Assembly (NCBI GenBank): GCA_019455285.1
Contig: JACFMS010000019.1
Span: 1 to 64,000, forward strand
Direction of reading: 5' to 3'
Origin: Sphingomonadales bacterium
Lineage (GTDB): Bacteria > Pseudomonadota > Alphaproteobacteria > Sphingomonadales > Govanellaceae
Length of the DNA: 64,000 nucleotides
Part shown: in pieces, positions 2,349 through 9,841 of the stretch
How positions within the stretch are numbered: position 1 is the first letter of the stretch
Layout: each line of letters opens with the position of its first letter
The notes under the pieces: model-generated
The model's input: only the letters and a program-made list of their open reading frames with translations
Told to the model about the DNA's origin: nothing
Database searches by the model: none
Made by a program: the position numbers and the translations under genes

Positions 2349-3359
2349 TTAAAGTACGACGCGGGTACCCGCTCGCCTCTCCTGGGCGGCTTGAAAAACC
2401 GCCCAGGCGGCGGCCAAATCCTGGGCGGCGATACCCAGGGATTTGTAAACCGTGACCTCTTTCGGGCTGCGACGGCCTTCGATTTTGCCGGCCAGCACCG
2501 CGCCAATCTCGCCGGCAATATGGTCCTCCTTGATCAGGCCGGCCTGCAAAGCGGCCAGGAACTCGCCCGCCTGGTCCAGCGTCGAGGGCCGGTAATCCAC
2601 AAAAAAGCGGCTCTGGGCCACGGTTTCGCCGTCCACCTCGGCCGCAGTGGGCACACTCGATCCAACCAGGTTAAGGTGCTGGCCGGGACGCAACCATTCG
2701 CCCTTGAAAAACGGCGTTTTGGCGGCGGTTAGCGTGCAGATGATATCGGCCCCGGCGATGGCCGAGGCGAGGTCATCGGTGGCCGTCAGGCGGGCGGAAA
2801 CGGTTCGCCGCTGACAATCGATCACCGCCTGCGCCTTGGCCAGGTCACGGCCCCAGACCCGGATTTCCGTTAAGTCGCGGACGAGGGGCAGGGCCTGCAG
2901 ATGGGCATGAGCCTGTTCGCCGGTCCCCAAAATGGCCAGCACCTTCGCGTCGGCGCGGGCCAGCGCCCGGGTCGCCACCGCACTGGCGGCGGCGGTGCGG
3001 ATGGCGGTAATCACGTTGGCGTCCATCACCGCCAGCGGCCGCCCATGCTCAGGCTCGAAGAGGACGTAAAGCCCCAGGTGAGAGGGAAAGCCATGTTTGG
3101 GGTTATCCGGAAACAGGCTGATAAGCTTGATGCCAAAACAGTCCGGCTTGCCAAGATGCCCGGCCATCATGCCCAGCATGCCCTTTTTGTTCAAAAGCGG
3201 CATGCCCCGGCGCAGCGGCAGCTCGGCGTTGCCGGCGCTGACCTCGACCATGGCCGCGGCTACCGCCTCGATGCACAGCGGAAAGGTTAGCAGCCGTTCG
3301 ACCTCACGGCCGGAGATCCACAACACCTCGATGCCGTCGCTGGCGAAGGAAAAGGACAT
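2349..3359 (-). CDS. Ornithine cyclodeaminase / mu-crystallin family protein
   Basis: The protein is 336 residues, the usual family length (~310-350). It is an NAD(P)-dependent enzyme; members deaminate ornithine to proline, reduce cyclic imines or act as amino-acid dehydrogenases. Family features are the N-terminal substrate region (LPLRRGMPLLNKKG, GIKLISLFPDN), MDANVITAIRTAAASAVATRAL (about 110-130), and the Rossmann motif VLAILGTGEQAHAHLQAL (about 143-160), where Gly-X-Gly binds the nucleotide. The exact substrate cannot be assigned. It is a single gene on the minus strand with a weak ribosome-binding site, 69 bp from the hydroxylase gene. Confidence 0.85.
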   Translation of the reverse strand: MSFSFASDGIEVLWISGREVERLLTFPLCIEAVAAAMVEVSAGNAELPLRRGMPLLNKKGMLGMMAGHLGKPDCFGIKLISLFPDNPKHGFPSHLGLYVLFEPEHGRPLAVMDANVITAIRTAAASAVATRALARADAKVLAILGTGEQAHAHLQALPLVRDLTEIRVWGRDLAKAQAVIDCQRRTVSARLTATDDLASAIAGADIICTLTAAKTPFFKGEWLRPGQHLNLVGSSVPTAAEVDGETVAQSRFFVDYRPSTLDQAGEFLAALQAGLIKEDHIAGEIGAVLAGKIEGRRSPKEVTVYKSLGIAAQDLAAAWAVFQAAQERRAGTRVVL

Positions 3360-3428: not shown

Positions 3429-4262
3429 TTATGACGAACGCTCGGCGGCGCGGTTTTGGGGCTGCGGAAGGAACGGCGCCGTGAGCATCCAGGACAAGCC
3501 GAGGCATTGCTCATCACGCATCTCCGGCAGCCCGAGGGACATGCCTTGATGGCCCGCCGCCGGCTGCGGGCGATAGGTCTGCATCAGCTTATCCCAGAAC
3601 GGGAAGACGGCACCGTAATTGCTGTCTTGTTCGACGCGCGCCGTGGAGTGATGCACGCGATGCATGTCGGGGGTGACGATGAGGGTGCGAAGAAGGCGAT
3701 CCAAACCCAGCGGCAAGCGGGCATTGGCGTGGACGAAAACGCCGGAGATGGCGGTCGCGGCTTCCATCAGGGCAACCACCGCCGGCGGCGCGCCGACCAA
3801 CATCACGGCGGCGACGACGAAGCCCATGGAATAAAGCCCTTCCAACGGATGGAAGCGCAGGCCGACGGTAAAATCGTAATCAAGGTCGGCGTGATGCACG
3901 CGATGCAGCCGCCATAGCGGCGACCAATGGTGCAGCAAAAAGTGTTGCAGGTAGCGGGCAAAATCGATGGCGAGAATGCTGACGACGGCGGCGATCCAAA
4001 ATGGCGCGTTAATAAGGTTAAAGAGCCCAAATCGCCAATCTTCCGCCAGCAACGCCATGCCCACCGCCGCCATGGGAAATACCAGGCGGATGACGATGAT
4101 GTCGAGTATGGTGATGGCGAAATTGCCGGTCCAGCGCCGCTTGAGGGACTGCGTCAAGGCACGGCGCGGCGCCGCCATCTCCCACACGGCGACGGCGGTC
4201 AGCGCCAAAAAATACGAGACGGAATAGATCTCCCGCTCGTTGGCTAGAATAAAATCGATCAC
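3429..4262 (-). CDS. Sterol desaturase / fatty acid hydroxylase family membrane protein
   Basis: A 277-residue integral membrane di-iron enzyme. Histidine clusters are in place: HFLLHH (about 111-116), HRVHH (about 124-128) and the later HRVHHS (about 204-209). Several hydrophobic segments precede and separate them (for example VVSILAIDFARYL and GFVVAAVMLVGAPPAVVALM). The family hydroxylates or desaturates sterols, fatty acids or other lipid chains; the substrate here is unknown. The start codon lies five bases after the stop of a tiny PEP-CTERM gene, and a second PEP-CTERM gene is upstream, so the three probably form one operon behind the sigma-54-type site at 4766-4781. That pairing is unusual and is discussed in the findings. 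Confidence 0.85.
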   Translation of the reverse strand: MIDFILANEREIYSVSYFLALTAVAVWEMAAPRRALTQSLKRRWTGNFAITILDIIVIRLVFPMAAVGMALLAEDWRFGLFNLINAPFWIAAVVSILAIDFARYLQHFLLHHWSPLWRLHRVHHADLDYDFTVGLRFHPLEGLYSMGFVVAAVMLVGAPPAVVALMEAATAISGVFVHANARLPLGLDRLLRTLIVTPDMHRVHHSTARVEQDSNYGAVFPFWDKLMQTYRPQPAAGHQGMSLGLPEMRDEQCLGLSWMLTAPFLPQPQNRAAERSS

Positions 4263-4267
4263 TGTTC

Positions 4268-4438
4268 CTAGCGGCGGAACAAACGATAGGCCAAGGCGGC
4301 GCCCGCCGCCGATACCGCCATGATGCTCAGGGTCGTCGGTTCAGGCACCGGCACCGGCGCGGTGGTGGCCCAGGCCGGCGATGCGGCGGCAATGCCGGCA
4401 AGTGTCAATCCAAAGGCGCGAACAACGGTCTTCAGCAT
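4268..4438 (-). CDS. Very short PEP-CTERM protein (second of a pair)
   Basis: The protein is 56 residues from the ATG at 4438, chosen because GGAGG sits six bases upstream; the longer frame to 4486 has no such signal. It has a Sec signal peptide (residues 1-24, cleavage after AWA), seven residues (TTAPVPV), the PEP motif PEP at 32-34, a hydrophobic helix (about 37-51) and a basic RLFRR end. This is the architecture of exosortase-processed PEP-CTERM sorting signals, but with almost no mature protein. The neighbour at 4499-4684 is a paralogue with the same helix and tail. No exosortase gene lies in the window. Confidence 0.8.
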   Translation of the reverse strand: MLKTVVRAFGLTLAGIAAASPAWATTAPVPVPEPTTLSIMAVSAAGAALAYRLFRR

Positions 4439-4498
4439 TATTGCCTCCACAATTAGAAGTTTAGGCCGCCCAGGGTGAGCGGCCACACTCCAGCTACC

Positions 4499-4684
4499 TT
4501 ACTTACGGCGGAATAGACGATACGCAACCGCCGCGCCGGCCGAGGCGACGGCGAATATACCCATGGTGGTGGGCTCCGGAATCGGTGCCGGCGCGGTGCC
4601 GGCAAAAACCACCGTTGGCGCGGTCAAGACGCCGACCGCGACGCCTGCCACCATGCCTTTTACAAGAACGTCTAATGATTTCAT
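4499..4684 (-). CDS. Very short PEP-CTERM protein (first of a pair)
   Basis: The protein is 61 residues from the ATG at 4684, preceded by GAGGG at nine bases; the frame is open upstream to 4741 without a better start. It has a signal peptide (1-28, cleavage after VFA), seven residues (GTAPAPI), PEP at 36-38, a hydrophobic helix (about 41-55) and a basic end RLFRRK. Compared with the 4268-4438 protein, the spacer, PEP motif, helix length and AYRLFRR terminus match, so the two arose by tandem duplication. A sigma-54-type promoter lies about 80 bp upstream. The function is unknown; the family knowledge is only that such tails are membrane-anchored and cut by exosortase. Confidence 0.8.
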   Translation of the reverse strand: MKSLDVLVKGMVAGVAVGVLTAPTVVFAGTAPAPIPEPTTMGIFAVASAGAAVAYRLFRRK

Positions 4685-4765
4685 GATCAGCATCCCTCTT
4701 ACCTTTATGTTGATCTTGCGACGGGGCAGCAAAAACGCCACATCGCCCCCGCAGCGGAGTTGCCA

Positions 4766-4781
4766 CGCAATATTTATGCCA
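4766..4781 (-). promoter_or_regulatory. Candidate sigma-54 (RpoN) promoter for the PEP-CTERM operon
   Basis: Reading the minus strand, the site is TGGCATAAATATTGCG. It keeps the invariant GG (-24) and GC (-12) at the exact consensus spacing of TGGCAC-N5-TTGC. It would start transcription about 70 bases before the ATG at 4684. The upstream stretch 4790-4887 is AT-rich and could hold integration-host-factor or enhancer-binding sites. Regulation of PEP-CTERM genes by RpoN together with PrsK/PrsR is known in other bacteria; its operation here is inference. Confidence 0.55.
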
Positions 4782-4887: not shown

Positions 4888-6426
4888 TCAGGCGGATTTC
4901 TGGAGATTCTGCCGCATACGTCGCGTCGTCTTGGCTTGCTTGGCGGCTTTAAAAGGAGCGGCGTCGTCGACGCTGCCGTCCTCTTCTCGGTAGACCACCG
5001 CCTGGCGGGCGCTGCCGAAGGTCAATTTCAGTTCCGAGGGGGTTGCAGCGGAGATTTCGCAGGATATTTGGCAAACGTCAGCCAGCTTCCATAACGAAAA
5101 CAGGCGCATGTCCATGCTTTCCGAGGAGCGGATGACATCATCGAAGTTGAGGTTATTGAGCCGGTCCAGATCGTGAAAAATTGAGGTCAGGGCGCTCGTC
5201 TGCGCGCCGCCCACGTCGCGAATAACGACGCTCTCGCCTTCGTCATCGAGATGTAAGATCCGCGGTTCCTTGCTTCTGGACGTGAACAGCTCCAAGAAGA
5301 CCTCGCAATAGCTCTCGATCATCTCGGGTATGGCTAATACCGGAAATGCAGTTGTGGCTGCCTTGAGGGTGAGGACCTCATCATCCTCCTGACGATTGAT
5401 GCGCTTGGCGATAGACTGGAAAATATCGATGATATTGACCTCCTCAGAATTGCTGTCATCGAAAACATCATCGATGCGGCGATACTCCAGAACGCTGTCA
5501 ATGAGTTTGCTCAGGCGGAGGCCGGCATCAACGACATAACGCATATATTCTTCGGCCTGATCGCGCCTGCCTTCTTGCGCATGATGCAGCGAAAGTTCGC
5601 TAAACCCCACCACGGCGTTCAGGGGTGTGCGCAATTCATGGGTAAATTGCGCGAAAAAGGCGCGCAGTCTTTTATCCGAGCGCGCCACTTCCGCCAGCGT
5701 CCTGCTTAACAGGATCTCGCGTTTTTCCAACTCCGTCACATCCCGTACGGTCGCCGTTGCCATGGGCGCGCCGTTCAAATCGCGATGGCGTACGATACGG
5801 GTGATGGTAGAGATTTCCCGTCCATCCTTGGTCAATCCCGGCACTATCCGCCACTTTCCCATGGTTCTGGCCGCTTCAGCCCCATCGGTGAAGTTTTTGG
5901 CGAATTCCTTGTGGCGGCGGCGGGATGGCGTGGGAATGAGCAAGTTAAGTGATTTGCCGATGATCTCCTCCGCCTTGTACCCGAACATGGCTTCTGCTTG
6001 ACGGCTGAAGTAGGTGATGTTCTGCCCAGCGTCGACGGAGATGACGGCATCGAAGGAGGCGTCCAAAATGCCTTGCAGAAAGTCATGGCTATTGCTGGCG
6101 CTTTGCTCTGCATGACGACGGGATTTTTCCAACCGCCCATATTCCCAATGAGCGACCCCCACCACCAGTAGTAAGACCGCGGCGACTGACAAAACATGAA
6201 GCAGGATCAACTGATCGGATTTTATGAAGAGCTGCTCGGCCGGCGAGAGGGTCACAAACAAATAGAAAGAAATGCTGGATAACACGCCGACGATCAGGGC
6301 GATGGGGAGCAGCCAAAATCCATGTTTTTTTCGGCTGTGGTCGGCGGCGGCGGTTGGCGGAAGTTGCAGCGGCGGTTCGTTGGCGGGTCGGCCGGTCTGT
6401 TGCGGCATGCCCAGTGTGATTGTCAT
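4888..6426 (-). CDS. Membrane PAS-domain histidine kinase with degenerate ATPase domain
   Basis: The protein is 512 residues. Two membrane helices lie near the N-terminus (about 36-58 and 73-93), then a PAS domain (about 112-230; ISVDAGQNITYFSRQAEAMFGYKAEEIIGK) with a PAC-like tail, then a HisKA dimerisation domain with the phospho-acceptor FTHELRTPLNAVVGFSEL (His near 262). The C-terminal part should be a HATPase_c domain, but the N box is replaced by a region reading ESYCEVFLELFTSR and the G1 box DxGxG by DVGGAQ. ATP binding is therefore doubtful. It could act as a pseudokinase, be phosphorylated by a partner, or only sense. It lies upstream of, and on the same strand as, the PEP-CTERM operon. 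No response regulator is adjacent. Confidence 0.8.
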   Translation of the reverse strand: MTITLGMPQQTGRPANEPPLQLPPTAAADHSRKKHGFWLLPIALIVGVLSSISFYLFVTLSPAEQLFIKSDQLILLHVLSVAAVLLLVVGVAHWEYGRLEKSRRHAEQSASNSHDFLQGILDASFDAVISVDAGQNITYFSRQAEAMFGYKAEEIIGKSLNLLIPTPSRRRHKEFAKNFTDGAEAARTMGKWRIVPGLTKDGREISTITRIVRHRDLNGAPMATATVRDVTELEKREILLSRTLAEVARSDKRLRAFFAQFTHELRTPLNAVVGFSELSLHHAQEGRRDQAEEYMRYVVDAGLRLSKLIDSVLEYRRIDDVFDDSNSEEVNIIDIFQSIAKRINRQEDDEVLTLKAATTAFPVLAIPEMIESYCEVFLELFTSRSKEPRILHLDDEGESVVIRDVGGAQTSALTSIFHDLDRLNNLNFDDVIRSSESMDMRLFSLWKLADVCQISCEISAATPSELKLTFGSARQAVVYREEDGSVDDAAPFKAAKQAKTTRRMRQNLQKSA

Positions 6427-8513: not shown

Positions 8514-8650
8514 GGCTGTTTACTCCGCTCCGCGTGACGATCGAGCGGGCAGTTTGCCAAAGCCTTACTCCCGGCACAATGCGCGATTCTCTTGATCGCG
8601 TGCGCCAGCTCGTTAGGATGCCCTTCGCGTAAGGGGGGAGGGAGTTTTTG

Positions 8651-9841
8651 ATGACGCGAAAGAAAAACCAGCACGGCAACCTGGCTGATGCGCCGATGAT
8701 TGCGGTGACGCTGATCGGTGACGGCGGCATCGCCTTGTGGGGGATGACGCCCAAGGCCCGGCTGATCCGGGCGCTGGCGAAGTCAAAACGCCCGGCGGTC
8801 TATGCCGAGCAGCCGCCCGCAGGCGCGGCGGCGGCGCTGTTGCGCGCCGACTGGTACCTGGAACCCCGGGTGCTCAACGCCATCCTGGACAATCCCGGCG
8901 TCATCGTCACCGCCAGGAGCCAGGCGGGGGAGGCGGTGATCGCCGCCCACGCCCCGGCGGGGGCGGTTGCCGATGTACGCCAGTTGGTGGCGGCAGGCGG
9001 CCTGGGCGGCGCGTCGATTCCGGCCGGCATGCGGGTGGTGACGGTGGACGATATCTGCGGTGCCTACAACAAGGCCCTGCGCAAGGCGGAACCGCCGCTG
9101 GTGGCGTCCATGCGCGAGCATTCCGAACGCGCCATCGAATGGGCGATGTACCGCGCCGCCTATAAGGGCGTGACTGACATCGTGACCAAATACGTCTGGC
9201 CGATCCCCGCCTTCTGGGTGACGCTGGCGGCCTCCAAACTCAAACTAACCCCCAATATGGTCACCAGCGTCGGTCTTCTCTTGGTGCTGTTGACGCAATG
9301 GCTGTTCTGGCGCGGCGACTTCTGGCCGGGTCTGCTGGCGGCCTACCTCATGGTGTTTCTCGATACCGTGGACGGCAAGCTGGCGCGGGTGACGCTGACC
9401 TCCTCCAAGCTCGGCAATATCTTCGACCATGGCATCGACCTCATCCATCCGCCCTTCTGGTGGTGGGCGTGGTGGATGGGCCTGCAGGCCACGGGCTACG
9501 CCGAGGGCAGCCTGATGGCCGCCTATGGCGCGCCGGCGCTGGCGGTCATTCTCATCGGCTATGTGGTCGGCCGCGTCGCCGAGGCCATCTTCATGCACAG
9601 CTTCGGCTTTCACATCCATGTCTGGCGGCGGCTTGATTCCGTGATGCGGGAGATCACCTCCCGCCGCAACCCCAACATGGTGATCCTGACCGTCAGTCTG
9701 CTGTTCGGTCGGCCGGATTTGGGCTTCCTGGCGGTGGCGGTGTGGACGCTGATCTGCGTGCCGTTTCACATCGTCCGCCTCCTGCAGGCCGGGGCGGAGC
9801 GGCTAATGGGCCGTCCGATTCGCTCCTGGCTCAGCGAGTAG
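8651..9841 (+). CDS. CDP-alcohol phosphatidyltransferase family protein with N-terminal extension
   Basis: The protein is 396 residues from the ATG at 8651, with GGAGGGAG upstream. The C-terminal half carries the CDP-alcohol signature D-x2-D-G-x2-A-R-x8-G-x3-D-x3-D (DTVDGKLAR ... GNIFDHGID, about 237-262) among several membrane helices; it swaps CMP for an alcohol. The N-terminal ~145 residues are soluble, with a segment LWGMTPKARLIRALAKS that resembles a nucleotidyltransferase fold lacking the GxGxR loop. This layout recalls fused inositol-phosphate cytidylyltransferase/di-myo-inositol-phosphate synthases. A HAD phosphatase and a real nucleotidyltransferase follow, so CDP activation of a polar alcohol and its transfer to a lipid or second alcohol is the likely theme (inference). 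Confidence 0.82.
   Translation: MTRKKNQHGNLADAPMIAVTLIGDGGIALWGMTPKARLIRALAKSKRPAVYAEQPPAGAAAALLRADWYLEPRVLNAILDNPGVIVTARSQAGEAVIAAHAPAGAVADVRQLVAAGGLGGASIPAGMRVVTVDDICGAYNKALRKAEPPLVASMREHSERAIEWAMYRAAYKGVTDIVTKYVWPIPAFWVTLAASKLKLTPNMVTSVGLLLVLLTQWLFWRGDFWPGLLAAYLMVFLDTVDGKLARVTLTSSKLGNIFDHGIDLIHPPFWWWAWWMGLQATGYAEGSLMAAYGAPALAVILIGYVVGRVAEAIFMHSFGFHIHVWRRLDSVMREITSRRNPNMVILTVSLLFGRPDLGFLAVAVWTLICVPFHIVRLLQAGAERLMGRPIRSWLSE

Follow-up and report, generated by a model that had tools for sequence, protein, structure and literature searches.

A 64,000-nucleotide stretch of the genome of a Sphingomonadales bacterium (hereafter, the window) carries two tandem genes whose products consist of little more than a putative signal peptide and a PEP-CTERM tail, and which are followed, after a few nucleotides, by a gene encoding a membrane hydroxylase. 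This arrangement raises the question of what exosortase substrates with almost nothing to deliver might be for, and of why they should be encoded together with such an enzyme.

Organization of the Operon

The whole cluster lies on the minus strand. A sigma-54 −24/−12 promoter-like site, TGGCAT-N5-TTGC, with GG-N10-GC spacing, can be read directly at positions 4781–4767, and the predicted transcription start of the operon falls at about position 4755. The first gene (mini-PEP 1) spans 4499–4684 (61 amino acids) if translation begins at ATG 4684, or 4499–4693 (64 amino acids) if it begins three codons upstream, at ATG 4693, just 5′ of which the sequence AAGAGGG is found; both ATG codons are found again in the congener G001 (QEVO01000002), a proteobacterium with a metagenome-assembled genome. 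The second gene (mini-PEP 2, 56 amino acids) spans 4268–4438. Sequence inspection and a hydropathy filter revealed, at the N-terminus of both proteins, a hydrophobic core and an A-x-A-like site, i.e., a putative signal peptide, whose predicted ends are ..VVFA (before G) and ..PAWA (before T), respectively. Exactly seven residues separate this end from the PEP motif in both cases: GTAPAPI (4580–4600) in mini-PEP 1 and TTAPVPV (4346–4366) in mini-PEP 2. The C-terminal part of both is made up of PEP (4571–4579 and 4337–4345, respectively), a hydrophobic helix, and RLFRR(K), the helix and RLFRRK tail of mini-PEP 1 occupying 4502–4570 and the tail of mini-PEP 2 occupying 4271–4336. The third gene (3429–4262) encodes a membrane hydroxylase of 277 amino acids belonging to PF04116 (fatty acid hydroxylase/sterol desaturase superfamily), and its GTG start is located five bases past the stop codon of mini-PEP 2. 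A first-pass annotation of this DNA had described the same promoter-like site, the two paralogues with their common architecture, and the closely following sterol-desaturase-family gene, and each of these elements was found in its place.

As for the surroundings, a gene encoding a PAS-domain histidine kinase (4888–6426, minus strand) is located directly upstream of the operon and is kept in G001; PrsK is absent from the best-scoring models listed for it. Downstream of the hydroxylase gene, an ornithine cyclodeaminase/mu-crystallin family gene (2349–3359, minus strand) was considered as a further member of the operon and rejected, since in G001 it is missing from this position and a DEAD-box helicase gene follows the hydroxylase instead. 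A few kilobases away, on the plus strand (8648–9841), the window also harbors a gene for a 397-residue protein with a CDP-alcohol phosphatidyltransferase domain; no evidence obtained here ties this lipid or polymer enzyme to the operon.

Family Assignment of the Peptides and of the Hydroxylase

Both mini-PEPs pass the cut-off of PF07589 (20.7 bits), with 23.3 bits for mini-PEP 1 and 24.0 bits for mini-PEP 2. When TIGR02595 (cut-off 16) is used, mini-PEP 2 passes with 18.2 bits and mini-PEP 1 falls narrowly below with 15.4; the tails of the mini-PEPs of related genomes are mostly recognized by this model. For the sequences of the module, the general PEP-CTERM domain is the sole named NCBIfam family scoring above its cut-off. 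The possibility that the mini-PEPs correspond to the midcut-by-XrtH protein (NF033207) was discarded, their scores being 16.8 and 13.0 bits versus a cut-off of 45.

The hydroxylase scores 99.3 bits against PF04116 (cut-off 31) and possesses the histidine motifs H107xxxH, H120xxHH, and H201xxHH; the pattern HxxxH, HxxHH, HxxHH is invariant across the 10 mini-PEP-linked hydroxylases that were compared. The nearest named NCBIfam model for all the linked hydroxylases is OlsE (NF052566), with scores of 50–93 bits. With 77.4 bits versus a cut-off of 475, the window enzyme was not assigned to the OlsE ornithine lipid hydroxylases. An AlphaFold model of the hydroxylase, obtained from a four-sequence input, had a pLDDT of 52.8. 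The genome of the window contains a second PF04116 hydroxylase (L178:3285–4112; G000:C42:171326–172108) without a mini-PEP.

Exosortase System and Putative Sigma-54 Control

The search for an exosortase, suggested beforehand by the first-pass annotation as a check of its reading, disclosed a single enzyme in the genome, i.e., XrtA (337 bits, cut-off 208), embedded in a whole accessory cluster that comprises an XrtA-system chain-length determinant, a tyrosine autokinase, an outer membrane protein, an ATPase, a deacetylase, a FemAB-like protein, a glycosyltransferase, an amidotransferase, an export protein, a decarboxylase, and an acyl-CoA ligase. The pst/phoU/phoB phosphate genes adjoin this cluster (L002:1–6128; G000:C37). 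The regulator PrsR, whose search had been suggested as well, is also present (711 bits, cut-off 502.6).

Thirteen PEP-CTERM matches in the genome are above the Pfam cut-off, and those whose frames were read, apart from the mini-PEPs, correspond to proteins of about 165–290 residues. A sigma-54-like site, defined as one that matches the consensus at 8 or more of 10 bases, has exact GG-N10-GC spacing, and lies no more than 130 bases from the start codon, precedes all of the PEP-CTERM units tested (11/11), the mini-PEP operon among them; in dinucleotide-preserving shuffles, the mean was 0.19 and the maximum 2, the start codons of the units being partly the analyst's choice. RpoN-dependent control of a PEP-CTERM gene (pepA) has been demonstrated in Aquincola (PMC9850573).

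Conservation and Recurrence of the Module

In G001 the promoter-like site is identical, and the promoter, both peptides, and the hydroxylase are kept at 92% DNA identity. The dN/dS values between the two genomes are 0.29 for mini-PEP 1, 0.24 for mini-PEP 2, and, over most of the hydroxylase gene, 0.16; within the peptides, the value is 0.11 for the linker plus tail and 0.32 for the signal peptides, few changes underlying these figures. The peptides are under purifying selection, which is strongest in the linker plus tail. Apart from the congener, a contig scan using the hydroxylase as a query matched nothing but two distant relatives from the Bacteroidetes.

In order to find related peptides, a profile constructed solely from the four peptides of the window genus, and thus blind to gene context, was searched against 385 genomes of the class. 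It retrieved short proteins in G288, G151, G370, and G204, each of them encoded immediately ahead of a PF04116 hydroxylase. Further searches brought in G733, G807, G826, and G867, belonging to one gammaproteobacterial family, and the more distant G904, of the same class as G733, which harbors four tandem mini-PEPs and a hydroxylase sharing 43% identity with that of the window; three tandem peptides are present in G288. The class of G733, which we take to be the Gammaproteobacteria, belongs to the same phylum as the window and is distinct from the window's own class. Altogether, the arrangement of one to four mini-PEPs immediately followed by a hydroxylase is shared by 11 alpha- and gammaproteobacterial genomes, with gaps of about 5–120 bases and with 4–10 residues between the signal peptide and the PEP-CTERM-like tail. 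The other neighboring genes are unrelated from one genome to another (EF-Tu and NusG; a Clp ATPase and a gamma-glutamyltransferase; a phosphoesterase and a cation efflux protein), so that only the mini-PEP/hydroxylase pair is kept.

Since the operon is conserved in G001 with low dN/dS values and recurs in nine further genomes, it can be regarded as more than a chance arrangement; the same two lines of evidence led to the rejection of the mini-PEPs as chance frames or pseudogenes. The conservation of the pair in relatives, which the first-pass annotation had required of its reading, is found intact in the congener and, more loosely, far beyond it.

XrtA scores above its own cut-off in six of the module genomes (G000, G001, G151, G204, G288, and G826), and an exosortase is present in G733, G807, and G867. 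This amounts to nine of the 10 genomes tested, a count that does not include G904; no exosortase was found in the remaining one, G370, a draft that is 95% complete. In G904, VSEP replaces VPEP in three of the four mini-PEPs (L296:6392–7269; G904:C6), and in one of these VSEP proteins a Cys closely follows the signal peptide (ASCVVIPVSEP). A short protein with a signal peptide and a PEP-CTERM-like tail in which PEG replaces PEP is encoded at L185:1241–1468 (G019:C3), and Roseobacter plasmids harbor hydroxylases with 47–50% identity.

Linkage Between Mini-PEPs and Hydroxylases

In order to assess the strength of the association, PEP-CTERM-like genes were counted in the loci retrieved by the peptide or PEP-CTERM searches, recording whether a hydroxylase gene was located within 1.5 kb downstream. 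This was the case for 17/24 mini-PEPs versus 1/85 longer, ordinary PEP-CTERM genes (Fisher p = 2 × 10⁻¹³, relatedness being ignored); the mini-PEP of G204 just misses the automatic filter used for this count. The first search represents the strongest part of the test, since linked peptides had been included in some of the profiles used afterwards. Among the seven unlinked genes that passed the filter, three have a longer linker and four are true solitary mini-PEPs of 47–60 amino acids, all from the class of G733 (G954, L267:1498–1644; G1013, L271:1498–1674; G1031, L272:1498–1641; G1037, L275:1459–1641), with no hydroxylase nearby. The reverse comparison revealed a mini-PEP at 0/77 other loci containing hydroxylase relatives, even when any xEP motif was allowed. 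The hydroxylase can thus work without a mini-PEP, as most of its relatives have none.

The linked state was then mapped onto a careful phylogenetic tree of 70 hydroxylases, where it requires four changes versus 10.4 after shuffling. A first group, which is supported (100/94), contains the hydroxylases of the window genus, G151, and G904; six other linked ones make up a second, weaker group, and that of G370 stands apart. Since the linked hydroxylases fall apart on the tree, the linkage seems to have been gained or lost more than once, and the topology suggests about three separate linkages of a mini-PEP with a hydroxylase, a count made unsure by the long branches; on the first tree, a single origin was not rejected by the AU test (p = 0.33).

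Comparison with Known Systems

The closest known system is PEP-CTERM/exosortase A (XrtA, EpsH) sorting with its PrsK/PrsR/sigma-54 control (Haft 2006, PMC1569441; PMC9850573). The window and the rest of its genome share with it the C-terminal PEP, helix, and basic end, the signal-peptide-like N-terminus, the XrtA cluster, PrsR, and the sigma-54-like promoter. However, known XrtA substrates usually have an ectodomain and are mostly encoded in single-gene operons, whereas the mini-PEPs keep seven residues, are arranged in tandem, and share their operon with a hydroxylase. The PExPT-CTERM model (TIGR04200, 57 positions) likewise describes a very short exosortase target with a PEP-like tail, and mini-PEP 2 aligns with it over positions 3–48; nevertheless, its identification as a target of XrtJ was rejected on the basis of its score (16.5 bits versus a cut-off of 40) and of the exosortase of the genome, which is XrtA.

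Lipid enzymes have been associated with sorting systems in other cases. N-acyl amino acid synthases are said to have been linked to PEP-CTERM/exosortase by Craig in 2011; they resemble the module in that a lipid-making enzyme is reported to be tied to the exosortase system, and differ from it in being acyltransferases, with no hydroxylase involved. In Haloferax, lipid anchoring through the archaeosortase requires PssA and PssD (PMC7157517), i.e., a tail-cutting, transpeptidase-like enzyme depends on lipid-biosynthesis enzymes, some of which are encoded alongside it. Since PssA and PssD serve a related archaeosortase, a lipid-enzyme partner for an exosortase has a precedent; unlike the module, though, that system is archaeal, its lipid enzyme is encoded beside the sortase rather than beside the substrate, and it includes no hydroxylase. 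As regards the enzyme itself, the linked hydroxylases share with OlsE, an aminolipid head-group hydroxylase (PMC11631085), the PF04116 superfamily and histidine motifs of the membrane di-iron type, even though all of them score far below the OlsE cut-off. No paper pairing PEP-CTERM with a sterol desaturase or a fatty acid hydroxylase was found among the open papers, a set that leaves out most subscription papers; no mention of the module was found in the searchable open literature, the component families themselves being known.

Possible Role of the Module

These data might suggest that the mini-PEPs and the hydroxylase represent a two-gene module conserved within the exosortase A system, in which minimal substrates would be expressed along with an enzyme tailoring a membrane lipid that is possibly their own anchor. 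We put this forward tentatively, as a reading that is quite possible and yet stops a little short of being probable. According to it, sigma-54 and PrsR would activate the operon along with the remaining PEP-CTERM genes. After Sec-dependent export of the mini-proteins and cleavage by signal peptidase, exosortase A would recognize and remove the PEP-CTERM tail and attach what is left, a peptide of roughly 7–12 residues, to an acceptor in the membrane or envelope. The hydroxylase belongs to a class that hydroxylates lipid acyl chains or head groups; its target would be a lipid in that membrane, in the simplest case the one carrying the peptide. The end product would be either a hydroxylated, lipid-linked oligopeptide at the surface or a surface lipid, the quantity of which a minimal exosortase substrate would determine. 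The mature peptide, of seven to ten residues, might itself be secreted, act as a lipid-linked anchor, or be a ligand of the exosortase. The PEP-CTERM tails, the XrtA cluster, PrsR, the exosortases of other module genomes, the bicistron shared by 11 genomes in differing surroundings, the linkage counts, the constraint on the linker plus tail, the intact histidine motifs, the archaeosortase precedent, and OlsE as the nearest named hydroxylase family argue for this explanation, whereas the VSEP variants of G904, the solitary mini-PEPs, the failure to find an exosortase in G370, and the hydroxylase relatives, most of which have no mini-PEP, argue against it. The first-pass annotation had pointed in a similar direction, and its expectations concerning the exosortase and the conservation were borne out; the presence of PrsR and the sigma-54-like sites before 11/11 PEP-CTERM units agree with the rpoN-dependent transcription that it had also proposed. 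Its claim can be widened from a single odd operon to a recurring two-gene module with one to four tandem peptides.

The recurring pairing suggests an unrecognized link between protein sorting and lipid modification, and a conserved operon in which an exosortase substrate reduced to the bare minimum accompanies a lipid-type hydroxylase points toward a lipid as the acceptor. We know of no attachment partner identified so far for the PEP-CTERM substrates of exosortases; given the small size of a mini-PEP, its product could be analyzed intact by mass spectrometry, and the acceptor question thereby becomes directly testable. A bolder version, which we regard as unlikely, is that the product is a new kind of ribosomally encoded lipopeptide, in which exosortase A joins the 7–12-residue peptide to a lipid modified by the hydroxylase of the operon; the exosortase would then act as a lipopeptide ligase rather than as a protein anchor, and the precursor protein would exist only to supply the peptide.

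The main rival to the two-gene exosortase module is that the mini-PEPs serve the hydroxylase as small membrane subunits or as regulators, the signal peptide, perhaps uncut, and the tail forming a helical hairpin that would bind or position the enzyme, and PEP only allowing the exosortase to switch off or move the subunit. The tight coupling of the genes is in agreement with this idea, as is the composition of the hydroxylase-linked tails, which are richer in Ala than ordinary PEP-CTERM tails and bear an aromatic residue near the C-terminus in 94% versus 60% of cases, as if fitted to a partner, although these differences stem from few independent lineages. A plain subunit, however, would need neither PEP (or SEP) nor the basic end, which are kept while the linker and the helix vary, and the four solitary mini-PEPs have no adjacent enzyme to serve, so that we consider this role not very likely.

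Solitary genes would be easier to understand if the mini-PEPs regulated or reported on the exosortase itself, as cheap competitive substrates or through released tails adjusting XrtA or PrsK/PrsR, with the hydroxylase as a passenger. Substrates with no domain to deliver make sense as ligands, and up to four tandem copies would raise their dose; the explanation appears quite improbable, however, as it does not account for the same enzyme family following mini-PEPs on about three branches of the tree. It is also conceivable, albeit highly improbable, that a hydroxylase gene landed by accident behind a PEP-CTERM gene and that the mini-PEPs are degenerate remnants of larger PEP-CTERM proteins. Even though most PF04116 relatives are unlinked, which favors this view, degenerate remnants are hardly compatible with a purifying selection that is strongest on the linker plus tail, and an accidental neighbor would not be expected to recur in 11 genomes with unrelated surroundings, nor behind 17/24 mini-PEPs versus 1/85 ordinary PEP-CTERM genes.
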